A stretch of 64,000 nucleotides of DNA from Conchocele bisecta. Its lineage: Eukaryota > Mollusca > Bivalvia > Lucinida > Thyasiridae. The stretch lies in NCBI GenBank assembly GCA_029237695.1, contig CM055272.1, forward strand, positions 36,156,791 through 36,220,790, read 5' to 3'. The notes below the pieces were generated by a model. The model was not told where the DNA came from. It did not search any database and worked only from the letters and a program-made list of their open reading frames with translations. The position numbers were made by a program, and so were the translations under genes. Below, in pieces: positions 8,502 through 62,900 of this stretch (position 1 is its first letter; each line of letters starts with the position of its first letter).

Positions 8502-9888
8502 CTGTCAACAACCCTGATTATGCAGGGAAGAAAACATTATTTATAGGAAAACATTATTGATACATAAATTAAGAGTCATCTGTCCCAGGCTCAGTTAGTG
8601 TGTGAGCTAATTAGAAATAGGTTCAGAGTAAACTATAATGACAATATAAGCAATGTAATGTTTAGAAAGATAAAATATGCAACTACTAAGGAGAAACTGT
8701 TAGTCAGAGTGGCACTGGCCAAAAACACAATAAGGCCCATTTTGTCATGGCAGTAACATAATTTACCTGCAACAGCAGGTTATTATAACATTAAAAGTCA
8801 AGGAATAAGACAGTCTGTTCTTTTTTAATTTAGTCTGGAGTTTCTATCCGCGTGTACCTGTACACACCTGAGACTCACCTGATCTATCACTATGCCAAAC
8901 AATACCCCGCCCACCTTGGAACATACACAGGTGTTGCAATATGTGCGCAATAAAAACAGTATATCATTTAGATACATACGTGATCAATTTGTGTACATTA
9001 TTTACGTATTCTTCAATGTGCTAAAACTGATTGTTGGTTGAATAAACGAAAATAGTCTAACACAAATGTATTGTTTTTGTAGGAAAGTATGTCAACCGGA
9101 TGTACGTCATTCGGAGCTTCTTGGCTTTATTCCCCGTTTTACCACAATACACATATCAAAATATCATGTTTTCGCTATAAAGATATGACTTCTATTTGAC
9201 ATTATTTATATATTTGTCAAGTTTAGTTATATATTTCATCCACATATGGTTCGAAAATACAATTTACTTTTCAATATTAGGTATAAAACTTTATCAGCGA
9301 TAAAAGCAAAGCAACTCGAATAAATGGCCCTTGACCCACAGGTAAATATTGCCAGGTGTCATGACAACGAAAGCACAGGTGCATGACTATAGCAAGTCTC
9401 GTAGTATATGTTGTAGACCGCTACCGAATACGTGTTCGATGAGCGTTACAGCTTCAATATATATCAGCACACATGCAGTCACACATGGCGGGAACTAATA
9501 CAAGCCAGATATCTACTTAGTCTTAAACTTTAATGACACAATTATACACTTATTTAATTCCTATAAGGACTAAAGACCATGTACAGTTAAGCAGGTGCGG
9601 ATACAGAAATAATTGCAGGGGGGGGGGGATGTCTGTAATTAAAATTCGGCGTACCCGACCTCCGCGTCCGGACCCCACTACTCCACCAGTTCTAAACATT
9701 ACGAGTGCCCGCTAAACATATATAATAATTTAGTAATATTTATTTTACTGATAGTGACTCGCGGTGGTATCTGGCTATTTTCATATGCAAATGAGGCATG
9801 TTATTTTCATTTTTAGCCAGGTTTTTTGAAAAAAAATCCAGGCTATTGGATTGGCGAAAGCCGGGCGGGTGGGCGGCGTCCACAATCA

Positions 9889-10450
9889 ATGTTAAGTTTT
9901 CGTGTTTGAGTCCATTTCTTTGTTACTGTACCACCTAGGACCACCAAACTTTCACAGCTTCATAATCAAGGGGTGCCCACCACATATCACTATCCAACAT
10001 GTTACTCTTTTTTTAACTTCACCCATTTTTTCCGCGTAGTCGACTTAGCCATTTTCAATGTTAAGTTTTCGCGTTTACAATGTTAAGTTTTCGTGTTTAA
10101 GTCCATTTCTTTTGTACTGTACCACCTAGGACCACCAAACTTTCACAGCTTCATAATCAAGGGGTACCCACCACATATCAGTATCCAACATGTTACTATT
10201 TTTTTTAACTTCACCCATTTTTTCCGCGCAGTCGACTTAGCCATTTTCAATGTTAAGTTTTCGCGTTTACAATGTTAAGTTTTCGTGTTTAAGTCCATTT
10301 CTTTGGTACTGTACCACCTAGGACCACCAAACTTTCACAGCTTCATAACCAAGGGGTGCCTACCACATACAACTATCCAACATGTGACCATTTTGTTACC
10401 TTCACCTATTATTTCTACGTAATTGACTTAGCCATTTTCAACGTTAACTT
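9889..10450 (+). repeat. Tandem repeat, ~190-bp unit, three copies
   Basis: Each unit has AATGTTAAGTTTTCGTGTTT and ACCACCTAGGACCACCAAAC; starts are near 9889, 10079 and 10270. The third copy is the most diverged. Confidence 0.8.
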
Positions 10451-10469
10451 TTTAACTTACGTCTGGTTA

Positions 10470-11770
10470 GAGTTTTTTGGTTAAAACTTTTTCGTTATAC
10501 TATATCTCTGCAACTGCTTCGCCCATTACCTTGAAACTTCACATGGGTGTTTATCATCATCCATATTTTCATTCTAACCCCCAACCGTGCGGCCCCTGTG
10601 CCCAATGTCAAGGTCAAATTACTTTGAATTTTTTGTTAAAGTTGTTTCGTGTACTATATCTCTGCAACTGCTTCACAATACCTTGACATTCACAATGGCT
10701 TGGGTGCTTATCATCATTGTCGCACCTGCTTGCGGAAAGCGCGATCCTGTGCCCTATGTCAAGTTCAAATTACTTTGAATTTTTTTGTTAAAGTTTTTTC
10801 GTGTACTATATTTCTGCAACTGCTTCACCCAATACCTTGATACTTCACATGGGTGTTTATCATCATTGTCGCACCTGCTTGCAAAGAAAGCGCGATCCTG
10901 TGCCCATGTCAAGGTCAAATTATTTTGATTTTTTTTGTTAAAGTTTTTTCGTGTACTATATCTCTGCAACTGCTTCACCCAACAATACCTTGATACTTCA
11001 CATGTGTGTTTATCATCATTGTCACACCTGCTTGCGGAAAGCGCGATATCGTCAGCATTTAGGCATACGTCCGTCCGTTCGTCCGTGTGTCCGGTTAAAG
11101 TTTTTTGGTTAAAGTTTTTCGTTATACTATATCTCTGCAACTGCTTCGCCCATTACCTTGAAACTTCACATGGGTGTTTATCATCATCCATATTTTCATT
11201 CTAACCCCCAACCGTGCGGCCCCTGTGCCCAATGTCAAGGTCAAATTACTTTGAATTTTTTGTTAAAGTTGTTTCGTGTACTATATCTCTGCAACTGCTT
11301 CACCCAATACCTTGACACTTCACATGGCTTGGGTGCTTATCATCATTGTCGCACCTGCTTGCGGAAAGCGCGATCCTGTGCCCTATGTCAAGTTCAAATT
11401 ACTTTGAATTTTTTTGTTAAAGTTTTTTCGTGTACTATATTTCTGCAACTGCTTCACCCAATACCTTGATACTTCACATGGGTGTTTATCATCATTGTCG
11501 CACCTGCTTGCGGAAAGCGCGATCCTGTGCCCAATGTCAAGGTCAAATTACTTTGATTTTTTTTGTTAAAGTTTTTTCGTGTACTATATCTCTGCAACTG
11601 CTTCACCCAACAATACCTTGATACTTCACATGTGTGTTTATCATCATTGTCACACCTGCTTGCGGAAAGCGCGATATCGTCAGCATTTAGGCATACGTCC
11701 GTCCGTTCGTCCGTGTGTCCGGTTAAAGTTTTTTGGTTAAAGTTTTTCCATCTACTATATCTATTTTTTT
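10470..11770 (+). repeat. Tandem array, ~145-bp unit, with 628-bp segmental duplication
   Basis: Units contain ATATCTCTGCAACTGCTTC, CTTCACATGGGTGTTTATCA and TGTCAAGGTCAAATTACTTT. Blocks starting at 10492 and 11119 repeat for about 628 bp, each ending with GCATACGTCCGTCCGTTCG. The ORFs across it follow the repeat period and show no conserved domain. Confidence 0.8.
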
Positions 11771-19840: not shown

Positions 19841-22800
19841 GTAATATGACTTTGTAACAGTTTCATTTGTTCATATGGATAAGGTAGACCTACAAAATAA
19901 TGCGGTATGCAAGCACTGGCCATACGTAAGGCGTCTTTGTAGACTACATATACCTTTACATATTTGTCCACACGGACAGAGTAAACATGAACAATAACGT
20001 GGTTTAGAAGCACCTCAACTCGTTTGCTGATTTCCTATGAGTTAATAAAGATAATATTATATCATCACTCGTACAAGATCCCCAATTTGGCACATGCCAC
20101 ACTCGGTATGTTAACGAGTACGATCTGTTCGACTAATTGCAGTTTATGGGTATCCATTAGTGGTAATGGATGCCGCTTTTGTTACAGACAAACTAAAATA
20201 TGTTAACGAGGACAACAGTGGCAATCTTAATGCATTATTAAACAGGTGTCTAGTTCACGACCGTGCTCGCTCCAGGATTACTTTGTAAGTACAGGCTGGT
20301 TTGCTTAAATAATTAATTGGACAGGCTATTTACATGATTGGGAATAACACGATCATCGCATTTTCGATGTCCACTTATTTAATTATTTTACGACATAATA
20401 ATTCCTTAACCCGTCTGTTTTGTGGTCATCATTTTGTACCAGTGCAGGCCCGTACGCAGGAATTAATTTAGGGGGTGGGGGAGTGGGTGCGTTATCGACG
20501 GCGAAGGGCTAAACATTATTTTTGCACTTCCACGGACAGACCTCAGCAGATTAACCCTTTAACCCCTAAGTACCTGGAATGGATTGTGATATGTTCATTT
20601 TGCAACCAATCCAATCATCACAAAATGATAGTCAGACCAGTCCATTTATGAACATGGGGTGTTTTTGTTCTCATAATTATGAAAAGTACTTGCAAAAAGT
20701 GCAGATCCTGATGAGACGGCTCGTCACGAGCCGGCTCATCTGGATCTTCACTTTTTGCCAATACCACTATACAGGCCTGTGGTGTTGAAAGGGTTAAGGG
20801 GATGCGTACGCACCGTCGCACCCCCTCTCTGCGTACGGGTCTGCAGTGTATTTCCTTGCTTTATTGTCACAAGTACATGAACATTTTGATAATACATGTT
20901 GGATATAGTGTAGTTACATTTCATTTATCATCGAGTTGGCTTATTCGTCTTGTTTAGTGGTCCTGTTTCTTTCCTATGTATCGCGGTCTTTGCGGGACAT
21001 GATTCATATGTATAGGTATTCAGTGCCATATGCGTATTGCTGCGTGTGTTGTTGCTGAAGTGTGTTGCTGCGTTTGTGATACCCTGGCGATTATTAGTTG
21101 TAGTATAGGACGTCCGTCGCATTTGATTCATTTACATGTGTATTACATTACTGTTTGGTTGAAACCAAACACCATTGGTCATGGAGTGCACGAGCGTTTT
21201 GTTGGCTTCTCACACACCGCATGCCATGTTTCTATGGCGTAACCTACTATTTTTATACTCTCACGTTTTCTAGAGCCAGATAAATTTTATTTGCCATAGA
21301 AAGTTCGAGTGCTGTTGTTGAGAGCATCTAGTTTACTGTGGTTGGTTGTCTTATGAGAATAATAAACATTATATAAAATGTGTTTATATTTTTCATTTCC
21401 AGACTGCAGTACCCTAACCAACCACTGCGTGTGCGCAGCCAACTTCGAGTATCTTCGGAAACCGGAACACGTCGTCCAATGTCTCCGAAAACAGAAGTGT
21501 TTTCACTGCCAACGGTACAGGTGCATGCGCAAGAAACACGAAACGGTAACGGCGGTTACGAAACTAATCCTCATTGCCGCCGCCCTTGGAAAATTCGAAA
21601 TTTTAAAATTCCTACACGAGAATGGCTGCAACCTTGAAACTAAAAGCGGAATATACGAGTTACGTCCATTACATTTATCAATCGTACATGGACATTTGAA
21701 CATATTCTGCTACCTGTTGACGCAGCAAGTGAACGTCAATGCGACAATTCTCTCACATGGGACCACATATTCACCGCTGATGCTCGCCGTAATGCACGGA
21801 CACGACGACATGGTTAGTTATTTGTTAATGTCAAGGGACATAAATCTCGCCTACCGGAACTCCATGCTGCAGTCGCCGGTAATGTTCGCGGTTCAGAACA
21901 ACAACACGGACATGATTAACCTCCTGCTGAGCGCGGAGGAATGTTCAACTTCAGCAACGAAGGTGTCGTCTGACGCGGGGAAGAAAAGGCGCTTACATCA
22001 TCCTGGTGCATTATTAGAAGCATTGCAACAAGGTAAGGTGTTCTGATATTAACCCAATCAACTATAAATACCTCTATATTGGTGTTTCCAAACAGTGTTG
22101 ATCATTATGAGCTAACTCGGCTGTAACTTTCATATGTTTTCTAAGAAAAAGAAAACACACCCCTTTTATAAATGGACTAGTCTTAATTTTTTTGTTGGAC
22201 GATTGGAATGATCTGAAAATTAACATAAAACTATTCCACTTATTTAGGGTGGAAAGGGTTCATAATGAATGCCCTCTGACGCAACGGCGTTTTCATTTGT
22301 TTCATAATTGGCCGCAGTTGTTTATATGGTTAGTCCTTCGTTTGTTTTCCAAATTTGAACTACATGTATAGCACACCAGATAGCCACAGTATTGCTTAAG
22401 TTTTTATAGTCTTATTATATTTTCCAGATAATGTAGATGTACTGAAAATTCTCCTCGACAACGGGTGCAACGCCAGCTTCGTGTTCCAGGGATACCACGC
22501 GCAGACGACGGCCGTGGTTATCGCGGTGGTAAAAAACTCGCCCAACTGCCTCAAACTGCTCATAGAACACGGAGCGGATGTCGATGTAGAAATGGACGGG
22601 TACACTTCCTCGGACTGGGCTGAATGTTTAGACTGGACCGAATGTAGAAAGCTGTTAGAAAGCAATTCTGAATCGCAAGCTTGCCCAATGAAAGACTTTT
22701 CAGATGAAGGAAACGTGGATGGTTTATTGATGGATTCCACCAGTGAGGAGATAATCGAGTGTGACAGCGATATGAATGATACAGGACAGGGCGTCTCACT

Positions 22801-23584
22801 AGCAACTGATGATGAATATGAGGATGTAAGTGCCTGTTTGAAGTGCGAGAGAACAAAGAACGTACCGCCAGTAATCGCGGTATGGAGCCTGGTACAATGG
22901 ATCGGTGTGAGCGAGGTTTTACAGAGACTGGCGTCAACAGGTCACGATGTGAACAGACAGGACCGGCTCGGCCGCACGTCCCTTCACATGGCGGTAGACG
23001 AACAGAATATACCCGGTGTGAGGACGTTACTGCAGCTTGGGGCCTGTCCCAATATACGCGATGTATGTTTGGCGACGCCATTTTGGCACGCTACGTTCTG
23101 GAACAAGGCGAGCATGATTAAAGAACTACTTTTTGCGAATGTTGTCACTGAGCTTCCTGCGAGGGAAGACGCTTATAGACTTGGTCTGCCGTGGGGAAAT
23201 GTCAGCGATCGTTTAGACGATAATGGTCATGTAGACGACAATCAGCACGATGCTGGTGATATCCGTTCGCCGCTGTATATGTCGGTGAAGAAGAACTTTA
23301 CACCAACAGTACGGCTGTTACTGGAAGCAGGATATGACGTCAAGTGTGAAAATATAGACGCCCTGTTGTCAATATCGATACCAGAAATCCGGGATATCTT
23401 GCTTAACCATATAAACCAGCCGCGGAGTTTGTTTACAACTGTGAGAAATGACGTTAGAAGACGGTGTATGATGAATATACACGATCTAGTCGCGGAGACG
23501 GACCTGCCGTTTCGTGTCAAAGACTGTTTACTCCTCCGGGACATTATAGACTTGAAAATAGAGCCGGTGTTCGTTCATATATGA
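19741..23584 (+). CDS. Ankyrin-repeat protein with SOCS-like box (ASB-like)
   Basis: Three exons, 19741-19840, 21403-22032 and 22428-23584, join in phase 1 both times to give 628 residues. Exon 1 supplies residues 1-33. Exon 2 opens with a cysteine-rich stretch (about residues 35-77), then about four ankyrin repeats ('LRPLHLSIVHGHLNIF', 'YSPLMLAVMHGHDDMV'). Exon 3 adds two more repeats ('LLIEHGADVDVEMDG'), an acidic Ser-rich spacer (about 328-385), further repeats ('GRTSLHMAVDEQN', 'RSPLYMSVKKN') and a C-terminal block at about 576-616 ('RSLFTTVRNDVRRRC', then 'ETDLPFRVKDCLLL') resembling a SOCS box. ASB proteins are substrate receptors of Cullin-5/Elongin BC ubiquitin ligases, so that is the inferred role; substrate unknown. 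The 19741 ATG has a strong context (A at -3, G at +4). The specific ASB orthologue cannot be told. Confidence 0.8.
20551..20797. mobile_element. Foldback MITE, family J
   Basis: TTAACCCTTTAACCCCTAAG / GTGTTGAAAGGGTTAA ends and central GCAGATCCTGATGAGACGGC hairpin, within intron 1 of the ASB-like gene. Relatives at 45365-45480 (half), 49752-49985 and 53467-53695. The rest of intron 1 is unassigned. Confidence 0.65.
21403..22032 (+). CDS. ASB-like gene, exon 2
   Basis: Acceptor CATTTCCAG and donor CAACAAG|GTAAGG. It carries the cysteine cluster and the first ankyrin block; 630 bases fit 2 + 209 codons + 1. Confidence 0.8.
22428..23584 (+). CDS. ASB-like gene, exon 3 with stop
   Basis: Acceptor ATATTTTCCAG; 1157 bases equal 2 + 385 codons including TGA. 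It contains ankyrin repeats, the acidic spacer and the SOCS-like C-terminus ending 'EPVFVHI'. Confidence 0.8.
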
Positions 23585-34920: not shown

Positions 34921-35201
34921 AGAATTCAATATTCACAAACACTGCAGATCCCGATGGGCCGGCTCATAATGAGCCGGCCCATCGGGATCTGCAGTGTTTG
35001 CGAATATTGAATTATGATCAGTTAGCTTGAAAGTTTTGTTAAACCATGAGCCGGCCCATCGGGATCTGCAGTGTTTGCGAATATTGAATTATGATCAGTT
35101 AGCTTGAAAGTTTTGTTAAACCATGAGCCGGCCCATCGGGATCTGCAGTGTTTGCGAATATTGAATTATGATCCGTCAGCTTGAAAGTGTTGTTAAACCC
35201 C
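34890..35201. repeat. Palindrome with triplicated 77-bp right arm
   Basis: GAGCCGGCCCATCGGGATCT starts at 34971, 35048 and 35125, exact 77-bp spacing. The left arm is single. 35202-35760 is unassigned. Confidence 0.85.
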
Positions 35202-50900: not shown

Positions 50901-53900
50901 GATCAGCCTGTGCATCCGCAGTCAGATCAGGATCTGCACAATTCGCTATTCCATCAATGAAACACCTGTCATGCTTCTAACAAGCAATATAGATCCTTAT
51001 CGGGCTAAACGATTGTGATATTCGAGTTATACTGGTCACAAAACCCATAAGTACCATTTCTACAACCGTCATACTTCTAACAAGCAATACAATTGTTATC
51101 ATGCTGTTTGATCGGGACCTGCACTAGTCATAAATCCCATAAGCCCCATTTCTCCAGTCACAGCCACAAATAAGCAAGGCCATCACCCGAGTGTGTCTCA
51201 CCCACGATACAAGGTCAGCATCATCCGTACGACATGAGTCTGGTTAGCCATCAATGCGAGGAAGCTACAGATGAAGTTTGGTAACGATCAGACTAGCTGG
51301 TGACATTACCAACCAAGGCCCAACTTTCTGAGCATATGCTCACCTTCATGTTCAGAATCAGAAAGTTGAATCCTGGATTCACCGCTTTAAATGATGTGCA
51401 TCCCCTCACATCCTCTAGTCTATGGATGAAAAGCAATGATTGTCCCTTATCAACATAATAAAGTTAGCAGCCCAACAATGGAAATACCCTAGTCTGTAGT
51501 ATGATGACTATTGTGCACAAAGCGTGGCTGTGACTGAAGAAATGGGGCTTATGGGATTTCTGACCAGTATAGCTCCTGATGAAATAGCAGACAGACTCTC
51601 ATCTATATTGCTTGTTATCAGCATGGCGGGTGTTTCATTGATGGAATAGCGAATTGTGCAGATCCTGATCAGACTGTGCGGATGCACAGGCTGATCTGGA
51701 TCTACACTGGTCGCAAAACTCGTAACCCCATTCCTCCAGTCCCAGCCACATATATAGTCAATGCAACTCACCTTGGATATCCATGTAAAAACGGACAAAG
51801 AGGTCCCTTAAAGCAGCCCCCCTCCTCCCAGAAACGACACGTGATGTTGGATATATCGTGAGCGAACTTGCAGTCTGCCCGGCGACAATTCCCCTCCAGG
51901 AAGAAACTACAGGGCTTCCTCTGCATGCCTGTAAATAGATTCATCGACTGATAGGTTGTTGGAGTTTAACGGCCTATCAACAGGTATGGTCATTTTAGGC
52001 CGGTCGACTGATAGGGAAATGAGATTTGTGAAATTCAGCCAGTGCATGGAAATACCAGGCTAGTGTCTTTTGATATCCATCAAGTGTACCAGGCAAAGCT
52101 AGGAATTCCTACCGATTCCGAGCTTGATGTCAAAAGCAAGATATTCTATTTATCAAGTAACGTTTTATACTACAGTTTATTTGATTGTTGGTGTTTAATG
52201 TCCTATCAACAGCTAAGGTCATTCCCGCATTTAACCTGCAGCATCAGAGGGAAAATAAAAAATCAGAACAGAATATTTGTGTCACAGGGTGAGAAAAATG
52301 TGCTCCGGCCCGGGGCTCGAACCCGGGACCTCTGGTTTACCGTACCATCGCTCTAACCGACTGAGCTAACCGGGCACGAATACACATTTCCTCCCCACAG
52401 TGAGTTACGTACCGTGACATACTTCCCCGCCAAATTGGAATTCGTCCCCGAATTCTATATTTAATTCGTCTCTGAATTCCATATATTTGGTACATTTTGG
52501 GTAGTATATATATCAGTCACGGTCCCTCGTTGGGCGCCAAATGTCACAGGGTGAGAAAAATGTGCTCCGGCCCGGGGCTCGAACCCGGGACCTCTGGTTT
52601 ACCGTACCATCGCTCTAACCGACTGAGCTAGCCGGGCACGAATACACATTTCCTCCCCACAGTGAGTTACGTACCGTGACATACTTCCCCGCCAAATTGG
52701 AATTCGTCCCCGAATTCTATATTTAATTCGTCTCTGAATTCCATATATTTGGTACATTTTGGGTAGTATATATATCAGTCACGGTCCCTCATTGGGCGCC
52801 AAATGTCACAGGGTGAGAAAAATGTGCATCGGCCCGGGGCTCGAACCCGGGACCTCTGGTTTACCGTACCATCGTTCTAACCGACTGAGCTAGCCGGGCA
52901 CGAATACACACTTCCTCCCCACAGTGAGTTACGTACCGTGACATACTTCCCCACCAAATTGGAATTCGTCCCCGAATTCTATATTTAATTCGTCTCTGAA
53001 TTCCATATATTTGGTACATTTTGGGTAGTATATATATCAGTCACGGTCCCTCGTTGGGCGCCAAATGTCACAGGGTGAGAAAAATGTGCTCCGGCCCGGG
53101 GCTCGAACCCGGGACCTCTGGTTTACCGTACCATCGCTCTAACCGACTGAGCTAGCCGGGCACGAATACACATTTCCTCCCCACAGTGAGTTACGTACCG
53201 TGACATTTGCATCGAGAATAACCAAACCTGGTGTCAGGTCAATACCACACAAAAGCCACTTGGCCCCTTCCCCTAAAAGTAATAGGATTAAATAATCATA
53301 TTACTCATACAAGGGGAATAACCAGATTAAACCCTCACAGACGAGAATGTCAGAGACGTACCTGACGGCCAAACCACGTCGTGATTCAGGTATGTTTGAA
53401 CACCGATCAAATTACACATCGCATGTTCCCACCTGCCACTCACTGTGGTCATGTGTAGGTACAGCATTAACCCTTTCAACACCAAGTAACTTAATGGGCT
53501 GTTCCATGCCACTGTTTCATGCTATTTCATTGGTCCATTCAAATTTTCAGGCTATTCCATTCTTCAGAAAGTGTAATTTTTTCAAATTTGATAACTATTA
53601 ACAAACAGTGGAGATCCTGATGAGACGGCTCATCTGGATCTGCACTGTTTGCAAACATTGTATCTATAGAGGTCTGTGGTGTTGAAAGGGTTAAATACGT
53701 TACAGTGTAGTTGTCAAATACAATGTGCATATGCATATATGTACAATGTATAATGTATATATGTATGTATGTATATATGTATACATATATATATGTATAC
53801 ATATATATATGTATGTATGTATAATGTATATATGTATGTATGTATATATGTACAATGTATATATGGCTTGTACAACTTACGGGACTGTCTGTGAGCAAAC

Positions 53901-56900
53901 AGCATAGCGGGATCCAACCATTCCTTCTCCAAGTCTGTGGAGAAGACCGCTTCATCGGGCATCGGCATCAAGTCGTAGTTACCGTACGATTGCTGAACAC
54001 AGAACATGCATTGATTCATTGGCTACTGGTAGTTGTATCATAGCCCAAAGACCTTCAGCATTATACACGCACCTGCTATAATTTCCAATACCAAGTTGTT
54101 GTTCTGTGTATCTAAAGGGGTGGAGCTTAGAATGTGGTGTAACTAAAGGGGTGGAGCCTAAATTAATGAGATGCCGTGCAATAATTGCCGTGCGTGTATC
54201 TGGAACGTATGGGCACTTACAAGCACGGCAATTATTGCACGGCTGTTCCTCTCAATGACCGAATGATGTCAACAGAAAATGTGCCAGACAACGCGTATAT
54301 GACGATAGCAACGGCCTTCACGACGTAAACATGGCAGGTGAAGGGACTTCCCCCCACCTGGCACTAGAATTCTGATTGGACCGTATCAATTACGTGGCAG
54401 ATCGAGCGATCAAAAACAGCTCCTGTCATTAATGAGCAGCGCCCACATAGAATTGCGCATGTGCCAATTTTCCATATTTGGCAAATGATACAAATCAGCT
54501 AGATCATAAAATTGCACGTGCATTTGATTTAAACTCGGCCTTACGGCCTCGTTTAAATCAAATACACTTGCAATTTTATGATCTAACTATTACTCAAGAG
54601 TAGCCACTAGTATTTCAGAAACTTGACATTTTTGCCAAGTCGTAGTTACATGTACCGTACGATTGCTGAAGACAGAACATGCAATGATTGATTGGCTACT
54701 GGTAGTCGGAGTAGCCACATGATTTGGCTACTACTATTTCAGAAACTGACATTTTTGGCAACTAAACGTTTCAGAACTTTTGAAAATGTATCATATTTTT
54801 ACAAATATTGGATTTGATTTGATTTATTATTGTTTAACGGCCTATCAACAGCTAAGGTCATTTAACGCCGGGCCAACGGTTTCGATCCAAAATTTAACCT
54901 GCCGCATTGGGGGAAAATCTCAAAATCAGACGCAATATTTAGATCGAGATAAATATATACTAGTATTCAGTACTGAAGTTAGAATAACCTGACCAGTAGT
55001 CTATTTCATCAACATTGCAAAGTATACTTTAGTAGCAAAGTATACTTTGAGGGAGAAATTTTCAATTTTATGATAAATTTATTCATTTTTATTATACTGA
55101 ATTTATTACATTATCACAGCCAATTTGGCTGTGATAATGTAATAAATTCAGCATAATAATTATGCATACATGTACTTTTAATTATGAAATATATGCATTT
55201 GTTAGTTCTATATGAAATAATGCATTTCAGGAAAAATAAATGATTATTCCCTCAAAGTATACTTTGCTAGAAAAGTATACTTTGCAATTTTGGTGTAATC
55301 GGCTACTGGTGCCAGGTCCATACCACACCAAAGTGGCCCCTTGCCCTAAAAATAATACCGGTAGGATATTGGAGCAGACGTAAAATAGTATTATTCTTTT
55401 TTATGTTATCAGTTCATTTTGGCTACTCATTTAAAATGTTGTCCTCTTTCAACGTCATTTACAGTCATTTACAGTACATTGTAAATATATTTCCTGAAAA
55501 ATTGCACATGTTCTTAGGTGCAAAATCACATGGCGTGTCTCAGATGAAAATTCACCTGTATATAACACATAAAACAAGGATGGCCGCGGTCCGCATGTCG
55601 AGCCCGCCGAGGCATTTGATGGTCTCAGAGTGTATTTATTTGAAGTTTGATGCCCAATAAGCATACAAAGTTTCAAGCAAATCTGACTTACGGTTACAGA
55701 AAACTTTAACGCAAATGTTGACAGAAACTTTAATGCAAACTTCTAAGTCATTTCACCTTGACATAGGGGCACACTGCACAGAGGCCACATGAGTGGGACA
55801 TAGAATGAATATATGGATGATGACTAATAAGCATATGAAGTTTCAAGTCAATGTGACTTAGGACTGCAGAGATATAAGGTATTTAAAAACTTTAACGTCT
55901 TTTTCGGTACGCAAACTTCTAAGTCATTTGACCTTGACCTTGGGCACAGGGGCTGCATGAGTGGGATACAGCATGAATATATGGATCATGACTAATAAGT
56001 ATATGAAGTTTCAAGTCAATGTAACTTAGGACTGCAGAGATATAGGACGGATGGACGGACGGACGGACGGACACCCGGACGTCATTGTGATCACAGGTGG
56101 AAGACTCGGACCTATGACACCAAAAAAATGCCTATTAAAAAAATCCCATTACCCCACCCACTTGGTCTCGTACAGTACCATATGCTAATATAAAGGTGAG
56201 CATAAATAGCGCTATTATAGAAAAAGCCCTCTCTTTTCCGGCTCGCACAAACACAATAAACATCGATTAAATGTATGAAATATGTCTCTGGCAATCGATA
56301 AAGGTATTAGGTGTGTGAATATACTCACTTCAAATCGCTGTTTGAAGTATTTATTGAGTTATTCGCGTTTTGATTACCCCATCCAAAGCGAAAGTTGCGT
56401 GTACGAAAGAATCTCACACAGAATCGGAGGCCGTCCGGCTGGATTATCGGTCATATTTGGCCGATAGCTGATCGCCAGCTCAAACTAAAGTCGTGCACCA
56501 TGATCATCAGCTGATGATCATATACACTAGAGACTCCAACCAAACAAAGTTCGTCCAATTGTGATCGTTCGCCGATCTAAAAAACACTTTTTTCTATAAT
56601 TTCATTCATTATCTGGAACTGGGTCAATGCACTATCTTCCATAATACAACCACCGAAGCGTCTATGTAAGAACATCTCTGATTGGTTAAACCTAAAAATA
56701 GACGCGAGGACTTTCCCTTTCCAGGGTTTCCGGAAGACATAATCTGATAGTACGCGAATCATGAATGAAAGTCAATAAAATTAGAAAAAAGTGTTTTTTA
56801 GATCGGCGAACGATCACAATTGGACGAACTTTGTATGGTTGGACTCTCTAATGTATATGATCATGGTGCACGACTTTAGTTTGAGCTGGCGATCAGCTAT

Positions 56901-59900
56901 CGGCCAAATATGACCGATAATCCAGCCGGACGGCCTCCGATTCTGTGTGAGATTCTTTCGTACACGCAAATTTCGCTTTGGATGGGGTATACAAAATGCG
57001 AATAACTGAATAAATGCTGGAAACAGCGATTTGAAGTGAGTATATTCACACACCTAATACCTTTATCGATTGCCAGAGACAGAAGTCATACATTTAATCG
57101 ATGTTTATTGTGTTTGTGCGAGCCGGAAAAGAGAGGGCTTTTTCTATAATAGCGCTATTTATGCTCACCTTTATATTAGCATATGGTACTGTACGAGACC
57201 AAGTGGGTGGGGTAATGGGATTTTTTTAATAGGCATTTTTTTTGGTGTCATAGGTCCGAGTCTTCCACCTGTGATTGTGATCACTGTCTCGCTTTCCGCA
57301 AGTGGGCTCGACAAAAACACACGACGTAGCTTGAAAACCTAACATTGGCATGGCCACATAATTGTGAAAGATCATGTATATAACCTAAATATGCGAGGTT
57401 AAATGTATGTATTTTCTTTTAGCTTTTACAATTCTAGGTACGAGGTAAAAAAACAATGTTCATGCAGTCTCCGCGAAACTGCCAAAATTTTACAGGACAT
57501 TCGGTCTGGTAAACTTGAAATTTTTACCAGTAGCAGATTTCACCAAAATTGCAAAGTATACTTATATATCTAGCAAAGTATACTTTGAGGGAGAAAATTC
57601 AATTTAAGGATAAATTTATTAATTTTCATTACAATGAATTTATTACATTATCACAGCCATTTTGGCTGTGATAATGTAATAAATTCAGTATAATAATTCT
57701 GCATACTTTTAATCATGTAATATATGCAGTGGTTAGTTCTATACGACATAATGCATTTAGGGAAAAATAAATGATTACTCCCTCAAAGTAGACTTTGCTA
57801 GATAAGTATACTTTGCAATTTTGATGAAATCGGCCAAAAAATGTACCAGAGCGCATTTTTTTTATATAAAAAATAAAATTTATACTTATATCAGTCATAT
57901 AAGAAAAGCTAGCTAGCACCAGAAGTGCATACCAAAGGAAGGTGATTTCACTGAAGCTTAGAATAAGAAAGTAAAAAAAATAATTGTTTTTTCATGCACA
58001 CATTTGACAAGTGTCCATGAGTACAAGATTTAATCATATCTGGTGCATGAACGGTTTACCAATAATAGCCTCAGATCAGTTGGCACATCAAAATTATCTA
58101 GCTTGCAGAATCTTTACTTCCTTATCATAGTATGGCGAGGTGTATATGAAGGGGAACAGAAATGAGAATTGAAAAAATGTTTAAATTATAGGACAACAAA
58201 GACATCAGCGAATGACCATGACCCGTCGTCCTTGGGATGAAAGTGGGGTGGAGCATTTTGCACAGAATAATGGAAAGCTTATCTGTTACTGATGGTTACA
58301 TGAATGGATGACATGACGGAAAGACAAAAACTATATACCACAATAACCCTAAATATGGACCATTTGTTTTGTTTTGACAAATTGTATTGCAAGAAATAAG
58401 ACTGACCACACTAACCCTAAACATTGCGACTCTTTCTTATAGGAAACCTGAGTGTAATCATGATCATAATCAGTGTTCCGAGACCACAACATTTTCAGAA
58501 GGACCACATAGCTCCAGATAAGTTTTATATCTAAAAGAGTATTATACCCCCAGATTTCAAATTCAATGCGTATTTTACTTTTACAAATGTATTATTGATT
58601 TTCTTCCTTATTAAATACGGAACAAATGATAAAAAATAAAACAAATTTAAAAATTAACTTATTTGAGCTGCACAAAGCAAACACGGTTTCATTTTTGCAG
58701 CTCAAATAAGATTTTCAATTTTATTACAGTATTTTCACTACTCGATTTGAAAATCAATGTGTATTTTCACATTGCTGTGAGTATTTTGTACTCCCACTTT
58801 TGATAATCAATGCGTATTCTGCTAGAATAAGTGCGTAAAATATACAATATGCACCTTATCTGGAGCTCTGGGACCACCGGAATAAGCCCTTGAGTGAGTT
58901 TGTGAATAATCGCTTACCTGTGGGGTGCTATGATCGCCGTCCCCCTGATCTTGTGTTAACTGTCTCGCCCGATCGCGGTAAACCAATTTCACGCTGAAGT
59001 AACTCGCGGGTTCGTCCAGCAAGCCGAAGTCACCCATCTCCATATTAAACTGCACAGCATCCGCACTGTACAAGCCATCATCTGGATAGCCGTGTTCAGC
59101 ACGTAGCTGCTCAATATCACCAGCAGTATATAGTTTATCTGGAGCTTTACGCGGAGCTTCAACGATTATTCCGTCATCCTTAGTAGTTATTGGTTCACTG
59201 TCCAACAACGGATCTTGGACAAACACTGCGGTGTCAACCGCCAGGTATTCGGCACTTTTGGGATCTAGTCCCGTACCCCATATACTCCTGTACTTGTCTA
59301 CATCACAAGTACCGTCATCATATAAGTGTTCAGTCACTAGATCTGTCCCCCACAGACTATTTCCATGTTCATAAGTGTCACTTTTCTCTGTTACACCATC
59401 GCAAACGTCAGTTTCCTGTTTATCTGAATATTTCTCGCGTGTTTCATCACGAGTTCTCCTTATGAAACCTTCAGTCTGTGGCCAACTTTTTGCCATTTGA
59501 TTATCTGTGTGTTCCGTTACCGGTTGCCAGTTGTGATGGCTTGGATTGTGGCCAATCGTCGACACATCCGGCCAGTCCTGAGTGTGTGGGTAGGTGGCAA
59601 CGAAACTGGTTATGGTGTAATCAAATGGGTAGGTCGGATCACCAGAATCTGTACCCACATCGCCAGAAAATGGATCAACCTTAGGCTCATATTTCTGGCA
59701 ATGGTGGTGTTTTTCAAAACTCTTGCTACCATCCTGTTCAGATTCCATAGCAGAAATGCCGTAATCTGTTTCATAAGCAGAGTCCAAGTCTTCGTTAATC
59801 CTAAACATTACTTCCTTCTCATTCACAATGTCTTCAATCATACCTAATGTCAGAGTTTCTGGAGTATCGCATTCTGACGAACTACCATCAACTGACGAGC

Positions 59901-62900
59901 TTGCTTTGTCAATACTGTCCCCAGTCTGTATGTATTTATTGTAATTCTTCACTTTAAACTGTGGCACAAAGGACTCCTCCTCATCACTATCTGCATTGGC
60001 ATGGAATTTTTGATATGGCGTTTTGGAAGATGAAATTCCACCGAATAGATCGTGTCTTTTACGGATCTTTGACGTTGGTAATTCGGCAACAGCGTTGGTT
60101 GGAGTTATAGGCCGGAAGTGGGTTTTAGGTGAAAAATACAGGTGCTCATGTGGTGAAGCAGGCTTGGGAGAATTTTCTGTAAGATCCAGATGGAACTTGA
60201 CAAGATTTGGCTCGCTCTGTACATGCAGCAGTTTTGGAGGTACGTCATAGAATGCTGAATGTTCAGACGGGACAAGCTCGAAGCTCTTGGAGAGTTTTGG
60301 ATCAGGAGGCCTGGCTTCTGTTCGCCATAACGATGGGACATCACCCATGGAGACACTGCGATCATAGAAGTGCGAACATTTACTTGGGCTTTCCTCCTCG
60401 TCGTCCAGAAACACTGCGTCTTCACTGGAATCATCGGACACGAGACTGAACGATATATGCGGGATTAGCGTGTTTTCACCGGACACATCCTCAGCCTTAT
60501 CTTTTTCATCTACCTCAACAGCAAGTCCACCAGCGGTCTGTTCGGTGTGCAAGAGGAAAACGTTTTCACCGAGCCATACCTGACCATCTGGAACCAAGTT
60601 CGGGCCCCAGGGAGAGAACTTTACCTTCTTCTGCATGTTGACGTCCCAGATCTGCGAGAGATGGCCACCGTTACTGTGTGGATGCCAGCACTGAAGGTCG
60701 GACGCCTGGAGAAATGTACCACCGTCCAAATCGCTGCATGCATACAAGGACGTGTCAAACAGCACCATACAATGCCAGAGAGAAGACAAACTGTGCCTGC
60801 TGGGACTGTCAAACCCATTGACTGGTTGGAAGGTGCTCTCAAGACCAAATCCGTTCAAATCAGCATCATTGGTCAAATGTAGGAAGTTGTTCAAATCAAT
60901 ACATGACAGCGACCCAGTAGAATTAGAACTTTCTGATGTTTTAGAACCACGGACATTGGCAACTGTCTGATCTTGGACAGGGAAGTGTGTTGGGGTTGGT
61001 GTGACATACTCTCCGTTATCGTCGTCGTTTGTTGACCATTTCCGCTGTCTTTCGATGTCTAATGTCAGATTGAAGACGCCCGCCAATGCCTCGTCAGTAG
61101 GTGATGTCTGCCACTTGTCCGACTCTGGTGTCGCAGCCTGCTCTGGTCTCAAATGTATCAGTTGCTGTTCTGTAGCCGATTGTATTGAGGGTTCCAGAAA
61201 TGGACTAGACGAGATGAGAGAAGAGTTGGGTGGAATAAAGTCGATCGAGACGTTTTCATCCAGATTTGCTGAGGACGATATTTCATCTGTTAGCCAAGCT
61301 GGAATTAGGACAGACCTTTCCCAAATATCGTCGGTGTCTGAATCAGTAACGCAGCTGTAACTACGATTGTGGTCCAGAACGGGACTTGAAGCGGAGCTCA
61401 ATATGCAGTCTTCTTTTTCTGGTGTTTCAAAGAGTGGGTAGCTATTTCTTTTATAGAGGTGAAGCTTCGAGTGGGATTGAGTGTCATCCTGAGGCTGGAA
61501 GATTTCATCAATAGGTTGAGTGTACCAAATATCTTGCTCCTGAAGTTCGGGACTGACACTTTCATCTCTTGGAGGATTTTCATTATAATCAAATTCAAAG
61601 TGGTTTGGTGTTTTGTCTGTCCGTTCTCGCTGTTCTAACGGTTCGCCATTGTCTACGTCCTGCAGTTCCTTGTAGGTTTTCTCAGGAGATGGCAACAGCA
61701 TACCCTTCAAGATGGATTCAACCCGGTTGCAGTGGTTTTCATTGGGCCGAGACGGGTTATCAGAAACGATGATTTTTTCCATTTCCGTTAAATCTTCATT
61801 CACAAAAAGTTCTGGGCCAAGAAATAATGAGTTGCTGGGAACAGTAGTTGGATCAATCGGTGTAAACCCTGGAGGCCAGCTCAGTAACCGTTCAGTCTTC
61901 TTGTGAGGTTTAATATCTCTCTCTGCTTTACGCTTCTGCCCACAATTTTGCGATTGTGAATGGTGCAGCTTTGGAGTGGGTTTTTTCCTTTCTCTGTTGT
62001 CATGCTGTTTGGACGAATTTGACTTGGGTTTCAACTGCTTGCGGTAAGGGACTGGACCCCTCTTTGTCAGTTTCTTCAGCTCTTCAGACGAGCTGGTTCC
62101 ATCTTCTCCGGAGCCAGCATTTTCTTGGCTTGCCGACTTGGTGAGAGGGTTGTTCTTCCAGACGGTTTGAGAGTCGACCGCGATAGGGGGAGAGGGTTGA
62201 GGAGAGGTGTCTGGTCCACACAGCGATGGAAAGGCTGCATAGTACCTGTAAATGGGAGTACCGTCATGAGACTAATGGTTATACAGTGGAACCTCTCTAA
62301 ACTGGACACCATGCCGATGGTGTCGTCTGTTCGCGATCGCAAAACACAAACGGCTGTATTGGAGTGGTCATATGCTGATTTACAGTGGAACATCTCTAAA
62401 CCGGACACCCTGAGAGGTCCCCAGGGTGTCCGGTTCAGAGAGGTTCTACTGTTTTGTTTGTTTGTTGGGGTTTAACGGCCTACCAACAGCTAAGGTCATT
62501 TAAGGCCGGGTCAATGGGTTTAGTACTAAATCCTATATATTACCTGTACAAGTACATGTACATGTTCAAGTACATATACAAATGGGGGGGGGGGGGGGGG
62601 AATCCCAAAATCAGAACTGAATATTTACAATAACGAAACTATATATTCATCCCTGAAATCAGAATAATCCTGATCTGATGCCAGGTCCTTGCCACACCAG
62701 AATCACTTGGCCCCTCCCAAAAGCAGTAGGATCAGTAATAATCTTACTACTTTTATAATGGGCAATAACCCAATTCAACTCCCAGGTAACAAAATAACCA
62801 GAGATAAAAAAAGTACCTGAGGGCCAAACCAAGCAAATCGTGATTCCTATAAGGAGGAACCCCTACTAGGATTAGGAATAATCATATTACTCATACAAGC

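Follow-up and report, generated by a model that had tools for sequence, protein, structure and literature searches.

The window, the whole 64-kb stretch of DNA analysed here, almost certainly carries a Helenus-type TRIM in a heterodont bivalve, that is, a non-coding miniature LTR retrotransposon with a tRNA-like, type 2 Pol III promoter inside its LTR; at this locus, four LTRs and three internal parts form an array. A sequence-only reading of the locus had already proposed a miniature LTR retrotransposon with tRNA promoter elements, and this remains the best account of its anatomy and of the dispersed copies; the type is not new, as TRIMs with tRNA-like LTRs have been described as Helenus by Kojima 2024 (PMC10886601).

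Anatomy of the array in the window

The array reads on the minus strand and occupies 52280-53205, so that the locus of 52276..53209 given by the sequence-only reading is exact. Four LTRs of 140 bp alternate with three internal parts, all of 122 bp, as had been noted, a single LTR-internal-LTR unit measuring 402 bp, and TRF reports a period of 262 with 3.5 copies and a match of 98%. The LTR ends noted as TGTCA/TGACA were found to be TGTCAC...GTGACA, a perfect 6-bp inverted repeat. Pairwise differences range from 0 to 5 among the four LTRs and are 1 or 2 among the three internal parts; LTR 3 is identical to LTR 1, and LTR 4 and LTR 2 differ from these by 1 and 4 bases, respectively. TTTG stands directly outside both ends of the array, with a flank match of exactly 4 bp and no longer, as compared to a match at 455 of 63,062 positions (0.7%) when the flanks of every 926-bp stretch of the window were taken as a chance control. 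A 4-bp flank match was found at none of the three inner LTR-internal-LTR blocks. The coordinates of the features are collected in Table 1.

Table 1. Features of the TRIM array, in positions of the 64-kb window
Feature	Position	Strand	Remarks
Target site duplication TTTG, plus-strand left	52276..52279		Exact match with 53206-53209
Target site duplication TTTG, plus-strand right	53206..53209		Exact match with 52276-52279
LTR 1, 5'-most in element sense	53066..53205	-	tRNA-like at 53087-53161; Rfam 44.9 bits
Internal part 1	52944..53065	-	122 bp
LTR 2, most diverged copy	52804..52943	-	tRNA-like at 52825-52899; Rfam 31.9 bits; no ARAGORN call
Internal part 2	52682..52803	-	122 bp
LTR 3	52542..52681	-	tRNA-like at 52563-52637; Rfam and ARAGORN
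Internal part 3	52420..52541	-	122 bp
LTR 4	52280..52419	-	tRNA-like at 52301-52375; Rfam and ARAGORN
Primer-binding site, tRNA-Lys-like, internal part 1	53046..53063	-	Equivalents at 52784-52801, 52522-52539
Purine-rich tract GGTGGGGAAGTA directly before LTR 2	52944..52955	-	
Purine-rich tract GGCGGGGAAGTA, before LTR 3 and LTR 4	52682-52693, 52420-52431	-	
A box TAGCTCAGTCGG of LTR 1	53143..53154	-	Same place in other LTRs
B box GGTTCGAGCCC of LTR 1	53099..53109	-	
T5 run, possible Pol III terminator, LTR 1	53080..53084	-	

The tRNA-Lys-like primer-binding site noted two bases inside was recovered at bases 3-20 of every internal part, as TGGCGCCCAACGAGGGAC in parts 1 and 3 and as TGGCGCCCAATGAGGGAC in part 2; TGGCGCCCAACGAGGGAC agrees at 16/18 and 15/18 places with two general (non-host) tRNA-Lys 3'-end complements. 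The polypurine tract is likewise in place, the last bases of each internal part being GGTGGGGAAGTA or GGCGGGGAAGTA, with the following LTR immediately adjacent. The tRNA-like sequence of the LTR was rejected as a primer donor, as its 3'-end complement plus TGG mismatches the primer site; the lack of such a match is also reported for Helenus as a whole (Kojima 2024, PMC10886601). Within the 64-kb window, no further copies were found outside the array beyond short matches with E of 0.24 or more.

Other repeats are also present in the window. An 18-bp inverted repeat TTAACCCTTTCAACACCA at 53467-53694, with the two copies 192 bp apart and inner 23-nt arms at 53602-53651, looks, from its sequence, like a small TTAA-ended inverted-repeat element. 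The motif GATCNNGATNAGNCNGNNC, a pattern written after seeing the sequence, has 22 window matches with up to one mismatch as compared to 0.09 expected by shuffling, many of them lying as facing pairs inside repeated blocks. A long inverted repeat (arms of 386 nt, 97% complementary, 349 nt apart) occupies 56122-57242, tandem arrays lie side by side at 9887-11675 (periods 192 and 149-154 bp), and a 77-bp unit containing the GATCC-type motif is repeated in three tandem copies with 98% match at 34969-35199.

The tRNA-like sequence and the dispersed copies

The tRNA-like gene with an A box, a B box and a T run, which had been noted for every LTR, is present in all four. An Infernal-type check suggested by the same reading bears this out, the Rfam tRNA model matching the four LTRs with 31.9, 41.1, 44.9 and 44.9 bits, all above the gathering score of 29. 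ARAGORN (bacterial code) predicts a tRNA-Thr with anticodon GGT in three of the four, an anticodon that is unusual for cytosolic tRNA-Thr. The A box TAGCTCAGTCGG, the B box GGTTCGAGCCC and TTTTT lie at LTR positions 52-63, 97-107 and 122-126, respectively, in each LTR, with a constant spacing of 14 bases from B box to T run, and the pattern used for A-B box pairs finds only these four LTRs in the window. The cloverleaf is imperfect in all four: the acceptor stem has one extra base in its 3' arm and the anticodon stem one non-standard pair, and LTR 2 displays additional broken pairs in the Rfam alignment. A 7-bp inverted repeat, AAATGTG at LTR 31-37 and CACATTT at 118-124, closes the tRNA-like hairpin. 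Over 52200-53300, tRNA was the only Rfam family found up to E of 1, and no 5S rRNA was found. The ARAGORN tRNA-Thr "genes" of this locus belong to a mobile element, which is a warning for tRNA annotators.

Elsewhere in the window, an ARAGORN tRNA-Ser (ACT) at 8695-8789, without Rfam support at the gathering threshold, is probably spurious. A pattern scan also gave 22 loci in bacterial-titled genome contigs, which were read as ordinary tRNA genes; at E below 0.01 the LTR matches all 22 only within LTR 45-110, the tRNA-like part, and the internal part matches none of them (best E 0.18). Pattern scans of viral contigs found no relatives.

When one 262-bp unit was used as query against the host assembly (1.89 Gb, 1196 contigs; the window lies in contig C8), 2460 candidates were obtained, the best 40 of which were scored, and at least 140 matches were found on at least 13 contigs. 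Fifty stretches were taken and, with 11 repeats of a site left out, 39 separate sites were mapped, which as best-scoring matches are biased to young and tandem copies. Complete LTR ends at both outermost edges are displayed by 27 of the 39 sites, and 16 of these 27 carry a 4-bp duplication, with 15 different words among them, as compared to 208 of 38,844 (0.5%) in a control of position pairs 402 bp apart, taken over approximately 1000 bases at the start of these stretches. The duplicated sites comprise seven single units, two two-unit arrays, three three-unit arrays (one of them the window array), one five-unit array and three composites containing inverted parts. The two LTRs of a single unit differ by 0, 0, 1, 2, 3 and 4 bases in six cases; in the seventh, they differ in length. 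The outer-flank rule gave no 4-bp match at the remaining 11 complete-ended sites nor at any of the 12 sites with incomplete edges, two of which have one flank outside the stretch; several sites without a duplication adjoin further Helenus pieces. The dispersed LTR-internal-LTR copies with target duplications, on which the sequence-only reading had made itself depend, are therefore present, and insertion with 4-bp duplications is shown for the family.

These dispersed single copies with differing duplications are also the reason why the retrotransposon reading holds. The array could otherwise be taken for a cluster of tRNA genes or a tRNA-derived 262-bp satellite with coincidental LTR-like features, as ARAGORN finds tRNA-Thr in three of the four copies, the period is regular and arrays are common among the sites examined. 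However, the seven single units among the 16 duplicated sites, the internal parts bounded by a primer site and a purine tract, and the unusual predicted anticodon GGT stand against it, and the dispersed copies with their 4-bp duplications refute it for the family. It is exceedingly improbable.

For the TRIM, Pol III is predicted, by analogy with Cassandra and Helenus, to initiate in the 5' LTR and to end in a later LTR; a tRNA-Lys would prime copying, and the proteins of a putative autonomous Gypsy element would copy the TRIM and insert it, integration yielding the 4-bp duplication. Apart from insertion with this duplication, we infer the steps (Pol III transcription, mobilisation by a partner) from the analogy. 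Because the T5 run lies ahead of the primer site, most Pol III transcripts that start in the 5' LTR are expected to end without reaching the internal part, and full-length RNA would need read-through of the first terminator; no discussion of this difficulty was found in the available text of Kojima 2024.

The same awkward position of the T5 run speaks for a TRIM transcribed by Pol II, in which the tRNA-like part is a SINE passenger, as do the proposal of a SINE insertion as the origin of Helenus (Kojima 2024, PMC10886601) and the 30 of 136 LTR copies at the mapped sites that show no run of four or more Ts there (2 with TTT after CACA, 14 with one T and 14 without the CACA-T pattern), T5 being kept in 106. 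Against this, the A box is kept in 131 and the B box in 121 of the 136 copies, counts that stand without a neutral comparison, and both boxes are conserved in Helenus (Kojima 2024, PMC10886601). Furthermore, none of the four window LTRs has TATA[AT]A or A[AT]TAAA on the element strand, although both patterns occur at least once in the internal part. A Pol II-transcribed element with a passenger is rather unlikely on this evidence, and a Pol III promoter within the LTR remains the preferred reading. In some LTRs of genome stretches L045 and L072, CACATGTTTCTC replaces CACATTTTTCTC, breaking the T5 run; these may represent a variant with a weaker terminator.

Palindromic composites and the origin of the arrays

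Some copies have like LTR ends on both sides. Two LTR 3' ends are outermost in genome stretch L054, with TGCA on both sides; two LTR 5' ends are outermost in L064, with ACAA on both sides, and again in the L035 composite (1773-2128), with TTAT on both sides. The LTR ends form a 6-bp inverted repeat, so the integrase could use either of them. From these three cases we infer that palindromic composites may arise prior to integration, a switch of strands at the tRNA-like hairpin being one conceivable way.

One and the same fold-back occurs twice in L059 (1441-1856 and 3116-3532): LTR 1-37 continues into the other strand, beginning at LTR 124, through a 7-bp word common to both. With a distance of 1675 bp between them, the two resemble a local duplication. 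A preference for integrating beside Pol III start sites, considered for copies broken at LTR 33-38, the expected transcription start, was dropped, because the clearest junctions (the pair in L059 and, close to that position, one in L034) sit at the LTR inverted repeat. These are read as fold-back or inversion junctions.

An array could arise when the LTRs of a single insertion recombine unequally, or when a concatenated copy is inserted. One duplication encloses whole arrays at six sites and composites with inverted units at three, and the like LTR ends with a duplication in L054, L064 and L035 are easier to explain if rearrangement preceded integration; template switching has also been proposed as one route by Kalendar et al. 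2020 (PMC7215508). However, unequal LTR recombination after one insertion would leave the same duplication, and four differences separate LTR 2 of the window from the LTRs next to it, which fits an exchange with a diverged copy. That the window array was inserted as a concatemer or template-switched copy, and not produced by recombination at the site, is given somewhat less than an even chance.

A bolder proposal, doubtful as a whole, joins two suppositions: that the paper on Helenus underestimates its age or mobility (present in the common ancestor of Pteriomorphia and Heterodonta, or transferred between bivalve lineages), and that strand switching during reverse transcription is provoked by its short hairpin-forming LTRs, in which case arrays and like-ended palindromic composites would form before integration and enter the genome in one piece, with a 4-bp duplication. 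The arrays and palindromic composites found here, whose 4-bp duplications are intact, are material from which the formation of such arrays can be worked out.

The host and comparison with known systems

The host is most likely a heterodont bivalve, judging from the named close relatives of two window genes. A minus-strand open frame of 1149 codons at 58822-62271 is related to uncharacterised clam proteins; its translation (58828-62268, minus strand) has at least 23 relatives with E up to 1e-3 among the best 7999 candidates scored. Four of them are named, from Mercenaria mercenaria, Mya arenaria, Ruditapes philippinarum and Mactra antiquata, and all four carry PF14608, which we take to be a CCCH zinc finger; Pfam gave no match on the frame itself. 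An ankyrin-repeat frame at 22400-23581 (plus strand) has 104 relatives, the first 23 at 42-52% identity, with Mercenaria mercenaria, Mya arenaria and Dreissena polymorpha among their named species, and after these E drops from 1e-72 to 3e-11. Mercenaria and Mya belong to Imparidentia within Heteroconchia, and Mactra is also heterodont. Ruditapes and Dreissena are placed under Heterodonta in PMC6934838.

Three other known systems resemble the element in part. Cassandra of plants (PMC7215508) shares a promoter derived from a Pol III gene in the LTR and a tendency to short tandem arrays in which neighbouring units have an LTR in common, with about three LTRs per array; however, it carries 5S rRNA, which is missing from the LTR here, in place of a tRNA-like gene, and its transcripts have been reported. 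Ajax (Kojima 2024, PMC10886601) is also a TRIM whose LTR holds the promoter of a small-RNA gene, but is 5S rRNA-derived, occurs in nemerteans and makes 5-bp duplications. The biv-TRIM of heterodont and pteriomorph bivalves (Satovic et al. 2019, PMC6934838) shares TDRx_I(x-1) arrays and a purine tract; its TDR of 202-218 bp and inner part of 77-80 bp differ from the 140 and 122 bp found here, it is without a clear primer site, and the available text describes no tRNA gene in its repeats.

Helenus itself agrees in the tRNA-like LTR with A and B boxes, the tRNA primer site (judged here by general, non-host tRNA-Lys ends), the polypurine tract, the 4-bp target site duplication of its animal families and a dispersed multicopy family, and the 402-bp unit, with LTRs round a short non-coding internal part, lies under its approximately 1.3 kb. 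Tandem arrays are also known in one of its families, LTR-11_DR of fish (PMC10886601). Its bivalve families have 4-bp duplications, tRNA-Lys among their primer sites and, in seven, tRNA-Thr-like LTRs, and their bivalve hosts are Pteriomorphia only (PMC10886601). The term 'Heterodont' is absent from the main text of that paper, and no heterodont Helenus was seen in the papers retrieved by a literature search. The difference is one of host, which here appears to be a heterodont clam, the likeness being drawn from described features. The kind of element is already known, and the likely extension to heterodonts and the palindromic composites are small new facts; the bivalve host range of Pol III-type TRIMs is probably widened.
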